DNA of 34,671 nucleotides from Spirochaetaceae bacterium (GTDB lineage Bacteria > Spirochaetota > Spirochaetia > Treponematales > Breznakiellaceae): positions 1 through 34,671 of the forward strand of contig JAITBE010000020.1 in the NCBI GenBank assembly GCA_031283755.1, written 5' to 3'. Shown piece after piece: positions 1,061-10,433 of the stretch; within the stretch, counting starts at the first letter, position 1, and every line of letters starts with the position of its first letter. The translations under genes and the position numbers were made by a program. The notes below the pieces were generated by a model. The model did no database searches and was not told the origin of the DNA. It saw only the letters and a program-made list of their open reading frames with translations.

Positions 1061-2545
1061 TTACTCCGCCCAAGCCCGGCTTCTTCCTACGGCCTTGTGC
1101 CAGCCCGCAAGGAGTTTTTCCCGGACGGCTTCGTCCATTTGGGGGGTAAAGCCCCGATCCTGCTGCCAGGTACCCCGGACCTCCTCAATGCCCTGCCAGA
1201 ACCCTACGGCGATCCCCGCCAGGTACGCCGCCCCCAGAGCGGTGGTCTCCCGAATCCGGGGCCGCCGAATCCGGGCCCCGGAAATATCCGCCTGGAACTG
1301 CATGAGGAAATGATCCCGGCTTGCTCCTCCGTCCACCTTGAGTTCCGTGATTTTTGTCCCCGTGTCCTTTTCCATGGCCCGGATCAGGTCCAGGCTTTGG
1401 TAGGCGATGGATTCTTCCGCCGCCCGGATAATATGGTACCGCTTGGTACCCCGGGTAATACCCAGGATACAACCCCGGGCGTACATATCCCAATAGGGAG
1501 CGCCCAATCCCGTAAAGGCCGGGACCAGGTAGACCCCGCCCGTATCGGGTACCTTTCCCCCGTAGTACCCGGCATCGGCGCTTTCGGTGATGAGCCGCAT
1601 CTCGTCCCGGAGCCATTGGATCACCGCGCCCCCCACAAAAACGCTGCCCTCCAGGGCGTATTGGACCCGGCCGCTTACCCCCGCCGCCAGGGTGGTTAAA
1701 AGGCCGTTTTGGCTTTCATAGGCTTCCGTTCCGGTATTCATCAATAAAAAACACCCCGTACCGTAGGTATTCTTCGCCTCCCCCTTCTCAAAACAGCATT
1801 GACCAAAAAGAGCCGCCTGCTGATCCCCCGCGTCCCCGGCGATGGGGATTTCCACCCCCTGAATATTCGCCGTACCGTAGACCATCCCCGAGGGGCATAC
1901 CTGGGGAAGCATGGCCCGGGGTATGTCCAGGGCGGAAAGAAGGGTATCGTCCCAGTCGAGTTTATGGATATTGTAGATCATGGTACGGCTGGCATTGGTA
2001 TAATCCATGACATGACCTTGGCCGTTGGTGAGCTTCCAAATAAGCCAGGAATCCACGGTGCCAAAGAGGATCTCCCCTTTCCGGGCCCGGTCCCGGGAGC
2101 CTTCCACATGATCCAGGATCCATTTTATCTTGGTACCGGAAAAATACGCATCCGGTACAAGCCCGGTGGTTTTTTTAATATGATCCCCCAGCCCGTTTTC
2201 TACCAGGTCATCCACGAGGTCCGAGGTGCGCCGGCATTGCCATACGATAGCGTTGTAGATGGGCCGGCCGGTTTGTTTATCCCAGAGGATGGTGGTTTCC
2301 CGCTGGTTGGTGATACCTATGGCGGCAATATCCCGGGCGGAAATATCCTTTTGGGTGATAAGTTCCATCATTACCGCGTATTGGGAAGAATAGATCTCCA
2401 TGGGGTCATGTTCAACCCAGCCCTCCCGGGGGTAAATCTGGGCAAATTCCTTTTGGGTCAGACCGATTATATTCTGTTCCCGGTCAAAGAGGATCGCCCG
2501 GGAACTGGTGGTTCCCTGATCCAAAGCCAATACATATTTTCCCAT
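1061..2545 (-). CDS. glpK: Glycerol kinase
   Basis: 494 aa, [24 protein letters not shown]..., [48 protein letters not shown]-family glycerol kinase signatures. Confidence 0.97.
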
Positions 2546-2847: not shown

Positions 2848-3951
2848 TTAAAAGTCAAATTTATAAGCATCCATTTGGTATTCTTCTTTTAAAGCCTTGA
2901 TAGTTTTTTTGAGACTTTCGTTCAAGGGAACCCCCGTATCTTTCCGGGAGAGCCAGGCCAGGTATTCCTTTTCACCGGCGGTATAGATCCGGTCCTGACC
3001 GGGCATCTTTTCCGAGGCCCGGAGTTCCCGCAGAATATCGCCGGTGGTTTTTTTGAATTGCTCCGGCTCCACAAAGGATGCAGTATCAATGGCAATAAAA
3101 AAATGTCCCAGGTGATAGGGGACTTTTTTACCCGAAGGATCAAAACCGTTCAGGGCCTTCAAGAACTGTCCCTGCTGGAGGGCCGCGGAGAGGATCTCCA
3201 CCACCGTGGCGTAGCCGTATCCCTTATAACCGGCGGTTTCGTCCCCCAGGCCGCCCAGGGGCGCCAAGGCGGAAGTCCCCGCGGTAAGTCCCGCCAGGGC
3301 TTTGGCGGGATCGGTTTCGCTGCCGCCGTCCCGGTTGATCACCCAGCCCTGGGGCATGGTTTTGTTAATCCGGTTATAGTGTTCTATTTTTCCCCGCTGG
3401 GAGACTGAGGTGGCGCAGTCAAGCACAAAGGGGAAATCCTCGTCCGTGGGAATTCCCACGGTCAAGGGATTGGTACCCAGCATATTTTCGATTCCGAAGG
3501 TAGGCGCTATGGAGGGCCTGGCATTGGTTCCCGTTATGCCTATCATCCCCTCCTTGGTAGCCATGGTAGCATAATAACCGGCGATGCCGTAATGGGTAGA
3601 GTTGCGTACCGCCACCATACCCATGCCGTATTTTTTTGCCTTGTCAATGGCCATCTGCATGGCGCGTTTCCCGATCACCTGGCCCATACCATCGTGACCG
3701 TCAACTACCGCCGTGGCAGGTCCCTCCCGGACTACCTCAAAACGGGTACGGGGATTCTGAATGCCGTCCTTGATCCTATCTATATAAATAGGCTTGAACC
3801 GGCCCACACCATGGGAATCAATACCCCGCTTATCCGACTCGATCAATATTTCAGCACAGACCGCCGCATCCTCAGGGGGTACTCCGGCTTTTATGAACAC
3901 ATCTTTCATAAAAGCTTCCATTTTATCAAAACTTTCGTACGTGACCGCCAT
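2848..3951 (-). CDS. Malate/L-lactate/ureidoglycolate dehydrogenase (LDH2/MDH2 family oxidoreductase)
   Basis: 367 aa; AEILIESDKRGIDSHGVGRFKPIYIDRIKDG, NSTHYGIAGYYATMAT, GTNPLTVGIPTDEDFPFVLDCATS are characteristic of the Ldh_2 family. Confidence 0.9.
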   Translation of the reverse strand: MAVTYESFDKMEAFMKDVFIKAGVPPEDAAVCAEILIESDKRGIDSHGVGRFKPIYIDRIKDGIQNPRTRFEVVREGPATAVVDGHDGMGQVIGKRAMQMAIDKAKKYGMGMVAVRNSTHYGIAGYYATMATKEGMIGITGTNARPSIAPTFGIENMLGTNPLTVGIPTDEDFPFVLDCATSVSQRGKIEHYNRINKTMPQGWVINRDGGSETDPAKALAGLTAGTSALAPLGGLGDETAGYKGYGYATVVEILSAALQQGQFLKALNGFDPSGKKVPYHLGHFFIAIDTASFVEPEQFKKTTGDILRELRASEKMPGQDRIYTAGEKEYLAWLSRKDTGVPLNESLKKTIKALKEEYQMDAYKFDF

Positions 3952-3962
3952 GTTTTCTCCTT

Positions 3963-4030
3963 AAAAAAAGAGTACAGCAAAATAACCTCCCGGCTATTTT
4001 GCTGTACTCTTAATCTCTTCAGCAAATAGG
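3963..4030 (-). promoter_or_regulatory. Attenuator-like leader of the LDH2-family gene: conserved motif, antiterminator and terminator
   Basis: Minus strand CTATTTGCTGAAGAGATTAAGAGTACAGCAAAATAGCCGGGAGGTTATTTTGCTGTACTCTTTTTTT. Motif 4023..4007; terminator stem 17 bp (AAGAGTACAGCAAAATA/TATTTTGCTGTACTCTT, 4011..3968) plus T7; alternative stem CTATTTGCTG (4029..4020)/CAGCAAA-A-TAG (4004..3994). Confidence 0.75.
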
Positions 4031-4202
4031 ATTTCCTTAAAAGTTTCCAAAAACCTTAATAAGTCTGTTCGGAAACATCAGGTTCCGAACAAGCTCATTA
4101 AAAACATACTACAAATATCGTTTTTTTGCAAGCGCTTCCGGTAACATTTTTAAATGAGGCATTTCAGGGGAGCCGCCATAAAATGCCGCATAAATGAAAA
4201 AC

Positions 4203-4823
4203 TCAAAAAAATCTGGGTTTTGGAATCGACCCAAGTTCCATATTTGATGAAGACACCGATACCGCCCCCGCCTCCAGGGCGTGCTGTACATCTTCCTTGT
4301 CCGAAACAAGTCCCCCGGCAATCACGGGTTTATTGATTATTTTGACGATCCTTCGGATTACCTTGGGTATAACCCCGGGCAAAATCTCAACCGCGTCTGC
4401 ATGATCCAGGGGAAACTGTTTTTCGATATTGACCAGGGACATGGAATCCAAAACAAAAAAACGCTGTACCGCTAAAAGCCCCCGGGATTTGGCGTGTTTA
4501 AGCAGATTTGTCTTGGTGGACAGGATACCGTCCGCCCGGGTATTTTCCGCGATAAAATCAACTACAACATCCCGGGAAGTCAATCCGTCAATAAGGTCGA
4601 TATGCACCAGGGCGATTTTCCCCGCATCCTTGATTTTTGAGACAATACCGGGAATGCTAAGGATGTCGCCAAAAAGCACAAACATGAGTCTGCCGCTCCC
4701 CGTGAGGCTTTTCTCCAGCCCTTCCATGGATTTTACCGCCAGGATTACCGGGGTGCTATGAAGAATCTCATAAAAAAATTCCGGGGAGGCGATATCTTTT
4801 TTCTTTATCAATATGTTCTGCAT
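4203..4823 (-). CDS. glpP: Glycerol-3-phosphate-responsive antiterminator (GlpP family, RNA-binding)
   Basis: 206 aa; VFLVLFGDILSIPGIV-like start, ALVHIDLIDGLTSRDVVVDFIAENTRADGILSTKTNLLKHAKSRGL, VEILPGVIPKVIRRI, PVIAGGLVSDKEDVQHALEAGAVSVSSS: GlpP family. Confidence 0.9.
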   Translation of the reverse strand: MQNILIKKKDIASPEFFYEILHSTPVILAVKSMEGLEKSLTGSGRLMFVLFGDILSIPGIVSKIKDAGKIALVHIDLIDGLTSRDVVVDFIAENTRADGILSTKTNLLKHAKSRGLLAVQRFFVLDSMSLVNIEKQFPLDHADAVEILPGVIPKVIRRIVKIINKPVIAGGLVSDKEDVQHALEAGAVSVSSSNMELGSIPKPRFF

Positions 4824-5081: not shown

Positions 5082-6989
5082 TTAAATAACCCGGGCCGCT
5101 ACTACCGTATTCGACATAGCAAAGAGGGTTACCACCAGGGCATTAATAAAAGCCCCCGCCCAGATTGACCCGGTTGCCCGGAAAAAGATTCTGGAAATAA
5201 CCGCCGCCGCCGGGAGGATAAATAAAAGCCCCCATAGCAGCACTCCGGCCAAGGCCGCGGTGATTTTCCCATCGGTAAAGGGAATGAACTGGAAAACCTT
5301 GACGCCGGTATTCATCAAGGCGATATAGTCAATCAGATGCAGAACCAGCAGTCCCCCAAAACTGGCTATGACAATAAGCAGGATGTTGATCCCTTCTCTT
5401 TGATTATTGATCCGGGTAAAGGTATTTTGACTCATGGCGCTTACCAGAAAAAAGAAAAGAAAGGACGGCAGATACCGAAGGTATATGCCCCATTTGGGAG
5501 GAGTAAGGGTTTTGATGCTCAACGTAAAAAACCGGAAATCGGTTTTGAAAAAGTAATCGCAGAGGGACAACATAAAATAACCCGCCGCGAATACACAGAC
5601 CGCCAGTACCGCCGCACGGAACACGCCCCTGCCGGAAAGTTTTATTCCCATGTTTTCAAAGGTACATCCGGCTTTTTTGGCAAAAACCTTGAATACAAAA
5701 AGATACAAGGCCACGGTAATTATTCCGGTAAGAAAATTGAGTACAAAAATCCCGTTAACACAGGGCAAGGGGAAAGCCGGGCTCGCGGGCATAAGTATTT
5801 TGACTGCCCTTCCTGAGGACAAGATATCAATGGAATAACCTACCGCCCAGTTGTACAAGAGCGGCGCAGGAATGAGCCCTATAATAAAAATTATTATATA
5901 CCGAAGCCTGCTCTTGCCGTCGGTGACAGCGGTAAGCCCCTGGGGTTCGGCTTGTTTTATGGCGCCGAAATAAGCGGTTTTGAGAAGCAACAGGCCAAAG
6001 GAAGTGATAAATACAAAAAAGGCTATCATAGAAATACCCGTCCCTAACTGCTTGGCAAACCAGCTTTGGGGAACAAAGGCCAGTTTACCTCCGGTCAAGG
6101 TAATATCAAAAAAGTCTACCACGTTCCCTACCGCTCGTCCGTTAAAATGAATCATGGGGTGATCATGGGGCGGTTGATAAACTATCCTCAGTTTTCCCTG
6201 TTGCGCGGCGCTGACAGCGGCGGCGCGATCCAAGGGGACCTTCTCTCCATAGGCATAGTAAGTATCATACTGGAAATCGGTGAATCCCATTCCCGCTTGG
6301 GCAGTCTTGCTGGTATTGAGATCGCTTCCCTTCACGGTCCCCCACATGCTTAAGGCCCATTCATCAAACTGTCCATATATTGAACCCATATTGACAGGCC
6401 AGGGCGCCAACAGGGCATTGCCATCACCATCAAGCGAAAAAGACTGGGAGGTGGGCAGCACCGCGATAGGGACCACGATATCGGGGTTAGTTTCCTTTAA
6501 TTCCCAAGCCTTGGCGGCTCCCGCCTGAATAGTGGATCCGCCCATGGAATGACCCACCATGCCAACCTTGGAAGAATCGGCATAGGGCAGTGTACCGATA
6601 TATTGCAGCGCCGCATAGGTCCCCATATCACCGTTAACCGGGTTGATTCTTTCATCGGGGAAGGTTGAGCCTCCGTGTCCATAGGCGTCTATGGCCATAA
6701 CTATGAAGCCCCGTTTTGAAAGTTCCACACAGTTTAAATCCTGTACCTCGGCGGTATTGTTATACCCATGACAGGAGATAACCACCGGGGCAGGATTTGC
6801 CGCGCTTGCGCTTTTAGGCACATACAACAAAGCCCTCATTTCCGCGCCGTCCCCGGTAACATACTTGATATCGTGGATTTTGACAAAACCGGCGCTGGTA
6901 TGGGCTATGTTCGCGATAATCGCACCAACCAGGATCATGACGAGCGCAATGATCATCACCTTAATAACACCGCCATTTTTTTTAGCCAT
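5082..6989 (-). CDS. Membrane-anchored alpha/beta-hydrolase with C-terminal multi-TM domain
   Basis: Start chosen at 6989 (MAKKNGGVIKVMIIALVMI) because of the GGAGAAATTGTATG RBS; the track extends to 7127 through the leader. PVVISCHGYNN, GMVGHSMGGST nucleophile elbow; C-terminal hydrophobic segments. Paralogous to 8601..10433. Confidence 0.85.
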   Translation of the reverse strand: MAKKNGGVIKVMIIALVMILVGAIIANIAHTSAGFVKIHDIKYVTGDGAEMRALLYVPKSASAANPAPVVISCHGYNNTAEVQDLNCVELSKRGFIVMAIDAYGHGGSTFPDERINPVNGDMGTYAALQYIGTLPYADSSKVGMVGHSMGGSTIQAGAAKAWELKETNPDIVVPIAVLPTSQSFSLDGDGNALLAPWPVNMGSIYGQFDEWALSMWGTVKGSDLNTSKTAQAGMGFTDFQYDTYYAYGEKVPLDRAAAVSAAQQGKLRIVYQPPHDHPMIHFNGRAVGNVVDFFDITLTGGKLAFVPQSWFAKQLGTGISMIAFFVFITSFGLLLLKTAYFGAIKQAEPQGLTAVTDGKSRLRYIIIFIIGLIPAPLLYNWAVGYSIDILSSGRAVKILMPASPAFPLPCVNGIFVLNFLTGIITVALYLFVFKVFAKKAGCTFENMGIKLSGRGVFRAAVLAVCVFAAGYFMLSLCDYFFKTDFRFFTLSIKTLTPPKWGIYLRYLPSFLFFFLVSAMSQNTFTRINNQREGINILLIVIASFGGLLVLHLIDYIALMNTGVKVFQFIPFTDGKITAALAGVLLWGLLFILPAAAVISRIFFRATGSIWAGAFINALVVTLFAMSNTVVAARVI

Positions 6990-7066
6990 ACAATTTCTCC
7001 TTCTCCGCTTTATTTTTTCCGGCTTTACCGCCGGCTTTTCCCTGATCCTCTTTATCCAAGGAGCAA

Positions 7067-7127
7067 TAAAAAATGGGCATGACAAACCCTGCGTTTGCCA
7101 TGCCCATACTCTTATTCTCTTGAGCAT
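7067..7127 (-). promoter_or_regulatory. Attenuator-like leader of hydrolase 5082..6989: conserved motif, antiterminator and terminator
   Basis: Minus strand ATGCTCAAGAGAATAAGAGTATGGGCATGGCAAACGCAGGGTTTGTCATGCCCATTTTTT. Motif 7125..7109; terminator stem 7107..7073; alternative stem ATGCTC (7127..7122)/GGGCAT (7105..7100). Confidence 0.75.
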
Positions 7128-7517: not shown

Positions 7518-7755
7518 CCAATCACGGGTTTATTGATTATTTTGATGATCCGGGCGGATTATCTTGGGTATAACCCCAGGCAAAATCTCAACCGCGTCCG
7601 CATGATCCAGGGGAAACTGTTTTTCGATATTGAGCAGGGATATGGAATCCAAAACAAAAAACGCTGTACCGCTAAAAGTCCCCTGGAATTTGGCGTGTTT
7701 AAGCAGGTTTGTCTTGGCAAACAGGATCCGAAAATCCTGATCTGGCAACAATAGC
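7518..7755 (-). pseudogene. Decayed partial duplicate of glpP
   Basis: About 215 bp nearly identical to glpP 4317-4535 (aatcacgggtttattgattattttgaygatcc...tgtttaagcagrtttgtcttgg), with an indel and no complete frame. Its end (tctggcaacaatagcggg) resembles the native glpP upstream region near 4861 (tctgtcaacagcagcggg). Confidence 0.85.
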
Positions 7756-7794: not shown

Positions 7795-7823
7795 TTGACA
7801 GATTGGATATTCACTGATATAAT
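7795..7823 (+). promoter_or_regulatory. Consensus sigma70-type promoter reading toward the hydrolase at 8601..10433
   Basis: TTGACA (7795-7800), 17-nt spacer, TATAAT (7818-7823). Confidence 0.7.
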
Positions 7824-7962: not shown

Positions 7963-8020
7963 GTGCTCAAGAGAATAAGAGGACGGGCATGACAAACAGA
8001 AGGTTTGTCATGCCCTTTTT
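7963..8020 (+). promoter_or_regulatory. Attenuator-like leader upstream of hydrolase 8601..10433: conserved motif, antiterminator and terminator
   Basis: GTGCTCAAGAGAATAAGAGGACGGGCATGACAAACAGAAGGTTTGTCATGCCCTTTTT. Motif 7965-7981; terminator stem 7985-7997/8003-8015 plus T5; alternative stem GTGCTC (7963-7968)/GGGCAT (7985-7990). Confidence 0.7.
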
Positions 8021-8600
8021 ATGTTTTGAGCCTGTTTCAAAATCCCTTATTAAGGATGTATGTCTGTGTTGATACGTATATGTCCAAATCTATCTCAATT
8101 CGGATGTGTCGTTATTGGTAGCACAATTTCAAATGATTGCATCCATATTGGAGGTCTCAAATGCAAAGATGATTGATATAATGAAAAGGGTGGGTATTAC
8201 CCGAAATACCTGGTCAAAGGCAATAAAAAACACCAAGAATGCGGGAAATGTACCTCCGCGGAGCAAACTTGTTTGCTGGTATCTTAGGCGTTGTGTTATT
8301 TGAACCGGAGCAGGGTATTAAACCAGACTCCCGAATAAAAAACATTTATTTATGGATCACCAAGAAGGAGCGTTATGTCTATGAAAAATATTCCCGCTTT
8401 ACCGGTGAACTAATCTTCATGTTGATTTTTGCGCTGGTGGATAGGATGCAAAAACATCTTAAAAACTTTTGGGGAAATAATGATCACCTTTAAGGTACCT
8501 TTATGGCTGTTGAGCAGGAAAAGAGGTTCTTCCTGTTCTAAGAAAGAGGGTCTGTTTTAGGAATCTGAGAGGCCATTGCCTCAAAACAAAGGAGAATTTT

Positions 8601-10433
8601 ATGGAAAATCAGAAAAAAAACGCAAAAAAATGGCTCATAATTGCACTGGCATTGTGTCTTATAAGTGTAATCGGCGCTTCGTTTGTCCAAACAAGCAGCG
8701 GCAAGGTCATAGTAAAGGATCTCCGGTGGGAAACCACTAAGGGCTATCAGATGAGTGGTCTTTTGTTTGTTCCTGCGGGTACAAGTCCTGAAAAGCCAAT
8801 TCCGGGAATTGTAGTCAGTCATGGTATGTTTAACAATCGGGAGATGCAGGATCTTAACTATGTTGAACTTTCTCGACGGGGTTTTGTGGTTCTTTCCATG
8901 GATATGTTTAATCATGGTTATTCTGAAAATAGTACCAATCAAATCGGCGGGATCCTCTTGGGTATGTATGAAGCGGTAAAAATGCTGGATTCTTTGCCCT
9001 ATGTAGATTCATCGCGAATTGGGATCACAGGACATTCATTGGGCGGTATGTCCAGTAATATAGCTGTCAACATAGATAATGCGGCACCCCGTCGTTTAGT
9101 ATCAGCGGTCCTCCTCAACTGTGCGGATGCTACCTATGTCAATGATACGGGAGAGTTCGTCGATATTTACGGCGGCCGTGATGTGGGAATAGTTGCCGCT
9201 AAGTACGACGAATTTTTTATGCGTCAGGATGACGGGAAAGGAAACACCACTATTCCTCGGGAATATATCAATTATTCCAATGCTCAGTCATTTCTCCATT
9301 TTGGAACCAATCCGGCATCACTGGAAAAACGATCTGCTGAAACGCTTTACCACAAAACCATTGATGGGCAAGATGCCATACGTATAATTTATAATCCCGC
9401 TATCATCCATCCTTGGTCTCATTTTTCCCAACAATCTACCATCGCCACCATCAACTTCTTTACCGAATCTTTAGGTGTTCCCAATCCAATAGCCGCAGAA
9501 AATCAGATCTGGCAATTAAAAGTATTCTTTAATCTCCTCGGACTGGTGGGATTCGGTATATTTGTTGTCTCTTTTACCATCCTCATGTCATTTACGCCTT
9601 TTTTCTCAAGTCTAAGGGCAAAAGAGCCGCTTACGGCCGCCGATGGGGACAGGACTACTGTGCTTTGGTTTTGGATCGGTTTAATCGCCGCATGTCTTTT
9701 CGGAACCCTAATGTATGTCCCGATACTCAACGGATTCCCCAGCTTCACTACCGTCAAGACATGGAGTATTGCCCAAAGTTCACCTTTTGGAATAAGTATG
9801 TGGGCGGCATTCTGCGGAGTATTTTCAATAGTCCTCATGATTATAAGTTACCGGATCTACGGAAAAAAGAACGGTGTCAATTTAGCTGCACGAGGTGTCA
9901 TCCTTTCACTTCCAATACTGGGTAAAACACTACTCCTGGCACTTATCACCGTAACGGTCTCTTATGAACTGGTGTTTCTTGCCGGCTTTTTCTTTAAAAC
10001 CGATTTTAGGATTTGGACTTTGGCGATTAAGGCCTTTAATGCCGAAAAAATACGAATTGCCTTCTTTCCCTATCTTTGGCTTTTTCTTATATTTTATGTG
10101 GCGAATTCAGTGGCAATCAACACTTTTAACTTTATCAAAATCGGCAAAAAAGAATGGATCAACACGGTTATCGTCGCTATCTTTAATACATTACCACCGG
10201 CAATCTTGCTGCTGATACAGTATATCGGATTTGTTATTACCGGTGAACTGGGACTGGGGATAAGCACCAACATGGTCGTTGTTTGGCTATTCCCTATTAC
10301 GGTCATTCTACCGGCTACCGCAATAATATCAAGAAAAATTTATCGCATTACCAACAACCCATATCTTCCGGGTATTATCAACGGCATTATAGTTACTCTC
10401 ATTGCATGTACTAATACCCTTACGTGGTTATGA
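8601..10433 (+). CDS. Membrane-anchored alpha/beta-hydrolase with C-terminal multi-TM domain (paralogue of 5082..6989)
   Basis: 610 aa; IPGIVVSHGMFNNREMQDLNYVELSRRGFVVLSMDMFNHGYS, RIGITGHSLGGMSS; FKTDFRIWTLAIKAF matches FKTDFRFFTLSIKTL in the paralogue. AAAGGAG RBS. Confidence 0.85.
   Translation: MENQKKNAKKWLIIALALCLISVIGASFVQTSSGKVIVKDLRWETTKGYQMSGLLFVPAGTSPEKPIPGIVVSHGMFNNREMQDLNYVELSRRGFVVLSMDMFNHGYSENSTNQIGGILLGMYEAVKMLDSLPYVDSSRIGITGHSLGGMSSNIAVNIDNAAPRRLVSAVLLNCADATYVNDTGEFVDIYGGRDVGIVAAKYDEFFMRQDDGKGNTTIPREYINYSNAQSFLHFGTNPASLEKRSAETLYHKTIDGQDAIRIIYNPAIIHPWSHFSQQSTIATINFFTESLGVPNPIAAENQIWQLKVFFNLLGLVGFGIFVVSFTILMSFTPFFSSLRAKEPLTAADGDRTTVLWFWIGLIAACLFGTLMYVPILNGFPSFTTVKTWSIAQSSPFGISMWAAFCGVFSIVLMIISYRIYGKKNGVNLAARGVILSLPILGKTLLLALITVTVSYELVFLAGFFFKTDFRIWTLAIKAFNAEKIRIAFFPYLWLFLIFYVANSVAINTFNFIKIGKKEWINTVIVAIFNTLPPAILLLIQYIGFVITGELGLGISTNMVVVWLFPITVILPATAIISRKIYRITNNPYLPGIINGIIVTLIACTNTLTWL

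Follow-up and report, generated by a model that had tools for sequence, protein, structure and literature searches.

Background

In Bacillus subtilis, GlpP together with glycerol-3-phosphate (G3P) activates glpD, glpFK and glpTQ by disrupting a terminator in the leader (PMC9604022). The glpD 5′ untranslated region (5′ UTR) transfers glycerol induction to other promoters, and glpP is required for this (PMC9604022). Here we analyse a 34,671-nucleotide stretch of DNA from a Spirochaetaceae bacterium (contig JAITBE010000020.1; 'the window'), in which a gene for an LDH2-family dehydrogenase is preceded by a leader with two competing hairpins and a proposed GlpP box. Like the leaders of B. subtilis glpD, glpFK and glpTQ, it combines a candidate promoter, a putative GlpP site and an intrinsic terminator in the 5′ UTR of a glycerol gene, with glpP present. 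On sequence comparison, we conclude with a probability of about 0.88 that the stretch upstream of LDH2 is a GlpP-dependent transcription antitermination leader. The mechanism is already known from B. subtilis GlpP; what is new is a regulon in spirochaetes that takes in non-canonical targets, together with a target consensus that crosses phyla.

Unlike the B. subtilis GlpP leaders, the spirochaete leader has a compact terminator that lies directly on the start codon, and the proposed spirochaete targets extend to genes for an LDH2/malate dehydrogenase-like protein, malic enzyme and membrane hydrolases. A small protein-held hairpin that excludes a terminator is also the principle of the ribonucleic antiterminators (RATs) of LicT, SacT and GlcT, PRD proteins of a different family from GlpP. 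A CAT domain recognises the RAT, a hairpin with an internal loop (PMC7430163); no RAT-like sequence was seen in this leader. As in HutP and TRAP leaders, a protein on short repeated NAG-type triplets would decide between terminator and antiterminator; unlike those leaders, this one has two RGAG repeats within a single loop.

A terminator and an antiterminator share bases upstream of LDH2

Read 5′ to 3′ on the minus strand, the leader runs CTATTTGCTG, AAGAGATTAAGAG, TA, CAGCAAAATAG, CCGGGAGG, TTATTTTGCTGTACTCTTTTTTT, AAGGAG, AAAAC and the ATG start codon (Table 1). The sequence-only reading had described a 17-bp perfect terminator close to the LDH2 start, and we find this hairpin, with a U-run that ends 11 nt from the ATG at 3951. 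Its fold (−30.6 kcal/mol, z = −10.4) was equalled in stability by none of 200 shuffles. The competing antiterminator hairpin, P1, pairs as had been claimed, over 10 bp with one bulged A (−6.4 kcal/mol), and its 15-nt loop contains AAGAGATTAAGAG. The overlap of motif and terminator 5′ arm likewise holds, the second AAGAG of the box being the 5′ end of the terminator. P1 and the terminator are mutually exclusive, because the terminator 5′ arm is made up of this AAGAG together with the bases of the P1 3′ arm.

Across ten elements, 96% of the terminator pair cells are kept and five pairs are altered on both sides. Double-changed cells number 10, compared with 3.4 in shuffles, and no shuffle out of 500 reaches 10. 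Taken over all classes, the P1 arms pair better with their own than with swapped partners, both in spirochaetes (9.64 versus 8.0) and in the Bacillota elements described below (6.24 versus 5.24, with a maximum of 5.84 over 500 swaps). Control of LDH2 by the terminator in its own leader, as first proposed, stands in so far as terminator covariation, conservation of the motif and P1 in other genera, and association with GlpP all favour antitermination. It does not stand for LDH2 alone: sequence comparison supports an operon of LDH2, usually malic enzyme, and glpK as the unit that the switch would govern.

In its genome the element lies only around glpP, and it recurs in relatives

The motif AAGAGANTAAGAG occurs exactly three times in the whole 2.78-Mb assembly, and a reversed-pattern control not at all. 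All three sites fall in a 4-kb span around glpP. A terminator comes after each of them, and they precede LDH2, a membrane α/β-hydrolase and its paralogous hydrolase. As had been noted, LDH2 has the element that diverges most; the two hydrolase leaders are nearly identical to one another. We searched the genome with R1, a covariance model trained on ten elements of the LDH2/GlpD type, with the hydrolase leaders outside the training set. At E ≤ 5 it returned only the LDH2 site (90.5 bits), the opposite-strand palindrome of that site and the two hydrolase leaders (36–37 bits).

Of 150 genomes of the family, 13 carry GlpP, one contig-end fragment included, and the host genome encodes it (PF04309 above cut-off). 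R1 exceeded 60 bits in six of the other GlpP-positive family genomes searched (G103, G051, G085, G054, G034 and G024), and direct reading located the element in G048 and G042. In the glpP regions of the family it recurs in about ten genera, with RGAGA-N3/4-RGAG in a hairpin loop and an overlapping terminator next. Across relatives, the genes that follow encode a malate/LDH2-type dehydrogenase, malic enzyme, glycerol kinase, a GlpD-type oxidase or UgpB-/UgpC-like proteins. In the glpP regions, glpP and the element are followed either by LDH2, malic enzyme and glpK or by a GlpD-type FAD oxidase and glpK; malic enzyme stands first in G024. The spacing between LDH2 and glpK is 49 nt in G048 and 24 nt in G072. 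In the window it is 302 nt, with no malic enzyme gene in between and no element seen in this gap directly upstream of glpK. The setting is one of glycerol and G3P genes, in LDH2–(malic enzyme)–glpK order here and with glpK, GlpD-type or UgpB-like genes in relatives. Exact matches to the 13-mer without a terminator across the family are mostly due to chance.

Elements also occur away from glpP, upstream of LDH2 (G042), glpK (G085) and a UgpB-like solute-binding protein gene (G034). G085 retains 27 residues of LDH2 in the interval from the element to glpK, as if a deletion had removed the rest of LDH2; switch and kinase thus stayed together when the dehydrogenase was lost. The same genome carries an element of this kind (L061:5056, plus strand) upstream of a xylose-isomerase-like TIM-barrel (IolE-like) gene divergent from glpP, which suggests further GlpP targets. 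Distant GlpP-bearing spirochaetes have the same loop ahead of GlpD (G405), a UgpC-like ATPase gene (G246) and a glpK–glpD operon (G223). In a 393-genome sample of the phylum, only the host genome scored above 40 bits with R1; seven of the other 392 carry GlpP. Elsewhere in the phylum, R1 matched generic terminators that lack the motif, the exception being a tRNA-like terminator in G507.

The loop motif is shared with Bacillota glp leaders

Generalising the motif to RGAGA-N3/4-RGAG, a form derived from visual inspection of glpF leaders, and combining it with a hairpin and a terminator gave 67 sites; they are spread over 56 of the 80 Bacillota glpP loci and lie, with few exceptions, upstream of glpF, glpD or glpK. 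Permuted control patterns gave about one match on average, shifted-register patterns included; a control pattern with 6 matches, and permuted patterns with many, apparently caught the same elements in shifted register. The exact treponeme 13-mer found few matches in Bacillota and no excess over controls. The two-RGAG loop is thus common to the spirochaete leader and the glpF, glpD and glpK leaders of other Bacillota, mostly as GGAGA-N3/4-GGAG in Bacillota versus AGAGA-N3-AGAG in the spirochaete; Planococcaceae and Jeotgalibacillus have spirochaete-like AAGAGA versions. A sequence element of the leader is therefore common to the glp leaders of other GlpP-bearing bacteria. We found no published consensus for GlpP RNA in the open-access papers searched.

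GlpP is the most likely regulator of the LDH2 leader, because the RGAGA/RGAG loop is also found in these Bacillota glpF, glpD and glpK leaders. The known action of GlpP and G3P on B. subtilis leaders, taken with the Bacillota elements, makes GlpP the likely binder here.

Weighing the alternatives

Several observations weigh against a GlpP-dependent leader. P1 is 91% paired but nearly invariant in the LDH2/GlpD class, and so gains no covariation support there. The candidate LDH2 promoter is weak by consensus, with a score not above shuffles. In G026, glpP adjoins LDH2–malic enzyme–glpK yet the element is gone; G471, G492 and G518 have glpP and glpK with no recognised element, and the GlpP genome G022 has no recognised element either. 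Conversely, G072 (74% complete) has the element with no glpP found. No element was recognised within 20 kb in 24 of the 80 Bacillota glpP loci, a comparison that covered named loci from Bacillota other than B. subtilis. For GlpP genomes without a recognised element, either the targets lie elsewhere or the motif is looser than our scan. Where the element has been lost in G026, the sequence still shows a GC hairpin, which has no U-run, and a site resembling a promoter (L070:609-763).

The hairpin might merely terminate the upstream glpP transcript, with LDH2 starting independently: glpP is directly upstream, and its stop lies about 190 nt ahead of the hairpin. However, only 16 nt separate the hairpin from the ATG, a space that also rules out the unrecognised promoter that the sequence-only reading had offered as an alternative. 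The same element is found where glpP is elsewhere (G042, G085 and G034), and a plain terminator would require neither a conserved loop motif nor P1; we regard this explanation as very unlikely. An antitermination switch with a different binder, either another protein or a small molecule as in a riboswitch, is also improbable. We infer the role of GlpP, and some GlpP genomes are without the element, but the close association with glpP and with G3P and glycerol genes extends over two phyla. Moreover, the conserved part is a loop of 12–13 nt, too small for a typical aptamer, and no Rfam 15 family matched the window or six Bacillota glpP loci (covariance models, gathering score). A chance pairing of motif and terminator does arise, as at the G507 site, which follows the end of a tRNA-like gene and where no GlpP was found, yet the terminator covaries, the element is specific across the genome and about ten genera share it, which leaves a coincidental hairpin with no regulatory role scarcely credible. 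We thus retain the GlpP-dependent antitermination leader as the preferred reading.

Start of transcription

The intrinsic terminator is situated between a promoter that is only weakly predicted (Table 1) and the LDH2 start codon. A TTG...-17-TA...T pair precedes the element in most relatives, with the −10 ending 39–85 nt from the motif. These promoter-like pairs and the elements away from glpP make it probable that the leader has a promoter of its own from which LDH2 is transcribed; read-through from glpP is less likely. Both hydrolase leaders have perfect TTGACA/TATAAT promoters. A palindrome at 4123-4140, AAGCGCTT (within TTGCAAGCGCTTCC), overlaps the −35 of the candidate LDH2 promoter; it resembles a LacI/CcpA-family operator and is a possible second layer of control.

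Genes of the locus

Table 1. Features of the LDH2 leader and neighbouring genes (window coordinates)
Feature	Position	Strand	Basis or remark
Shine–Dalgarno AAGGAG, immediately 3′ of U-run	3957..3962	-	sequence
Terminator U-run, seven U	3963..3969	-	sequence
Intrinsic terminator hairpin	3968..4011	-	17 perfect pairs (20 counting G-U); starts with AAGAG, which also forms the second half-site of the proposed GlpP box
P1 3′ arm CAGCAAAATAG, one A bulged; same bases serve terminator 5′ arm	3994..4004	-	pairing, folding
Proposed GlpP box AAGAGATTAAGAG (RGAGA-N3-RGAG), in P1 loop	4007..4019	-	motif scans, covariance model
Antiterminator hairpin P1, 5′ arm CTATTTGCTG	4020..4029	-	sequence, pairing, folding
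Candidate promoter TTGCAA-17-TATGTT, LDH2–glpK operon	4103..4131	-	8/12 consensus match; score 9 versus shuffle mean 9.0
LDH2-family dehydrogenase	2848..3951	-	PF02615, 430 bits; best structures 3i0p, 1v9n
glpK, glycerol kinase, downstream of LDH2	1061..2545	-	TIGR01311, 714 bits, above cut-off
glpP, glycerol-3-phosphate responsive antiterminator	4203..4823	-	PF04309, 202 bits versus 27-bit cut-off; PDB 3kts, 1vkf
Membrane α/β-hydrolase under second element	5082..6990	-	start moved from open reading frame (ORF) start 7127 to 6990
Second GlpP box AAGAGAATAAGAG, hydrolase leader	7109..7121	-	terminator 7107-7073; promoter TTGACA/TATAAT 7184-7157
Third GlpP box AAGAGAATAAGAG	7969..7981	+	terminator 7985-8015; promoter TTGACA/TATAAT 7795-7823
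Paralogous membrane α/β-hydrolase, about 580 nt beyond third element's terminator	8601..10433	+	ORF and profile matches

The solved structures nearest to LDH2 are both malate dehydrogenases. No NCBIfam equivalog reached its cut-off for this protein, the top model being L-sulfolactate dehydrogenase at 282 of 500 bits. Genomes with LDH2 in the slot after the element are without the GlpD-type orthologue (61–66%) of GlpD-slot genomes, having at most a 35–38% paralogue, and two of the four GlpD-slot genomes have no LDH2 homologue at all. A malate shunt coupled to glycerol use is plausible.

The gap between the third terminator and its hydrolase (7985-8601) holds a possible transposase-like ORF remnant and is probably an insertion. 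Between the two divergent hydrolase leaders lies a partial second glpP (7542-7727, minus strand), which is a degenerate duplication. It matches PF04309 at 36.9 bits over positions 75-136 and shares about 76% identity with the intact copy. Short palindromes, GTTCCAAAAC...GTTTTGGAACAG, recur intergenically at 1-400, 2590-2660 and 4055-4095 and are probably dispersed repeats.

Proposed mechanism and implications

For promoter use, folding order, GlpP binding and the G3P signal we infer the following course. RNA polymerase would initiate at the promoter upstream of the leader, and the nascent RNA would fold P1 first, its loop displaying AAGAGAUUAAGAG. As long as inducer is absent, P1 would give way to the terminator, which is longer and far more stable: the CUCUU arm would pair with the P1 3′ arm and the second AAGAG, and termination would fall just ahead of the ribosome-binding site. 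Once phosphorylation of glycerol has yielded G3P, GlpP from the adjoining gene would bind both RGAG half-sites in the loop. P1 held by GlpP would keep AAGAG from the terminator, and the LDH2–(malic enzyme)–glpK operon would be transcribed.

We also favour, with more reserve, a broader interpretation in which the RGAGA-N3/4-RGAG loop is a general GlpP element of Bacillota and Spirochaetota. In treponemes of the termite-gut type, to which the gene content suggests that this bacterium belongs, GlpP would then have acquired control of an operon for malate dehydrogenase, malic enzyme and glycerol kinase in the slot of a GlpD-type oxidase, and of membrane hydrolases that may release glycerol. The natural variants of the element (A or G at the first position, 3- or 4-nt spacing, altered stems) make GlpP–RNA recognition directly testable, and a consensus spanning two phyla lets GlpP regulons be inferred from genomes. 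For spirochaetes, the leader would constitute a switch responsive to glycerol and G3P, and in this group glycerol use may be tied to malate metabolism.
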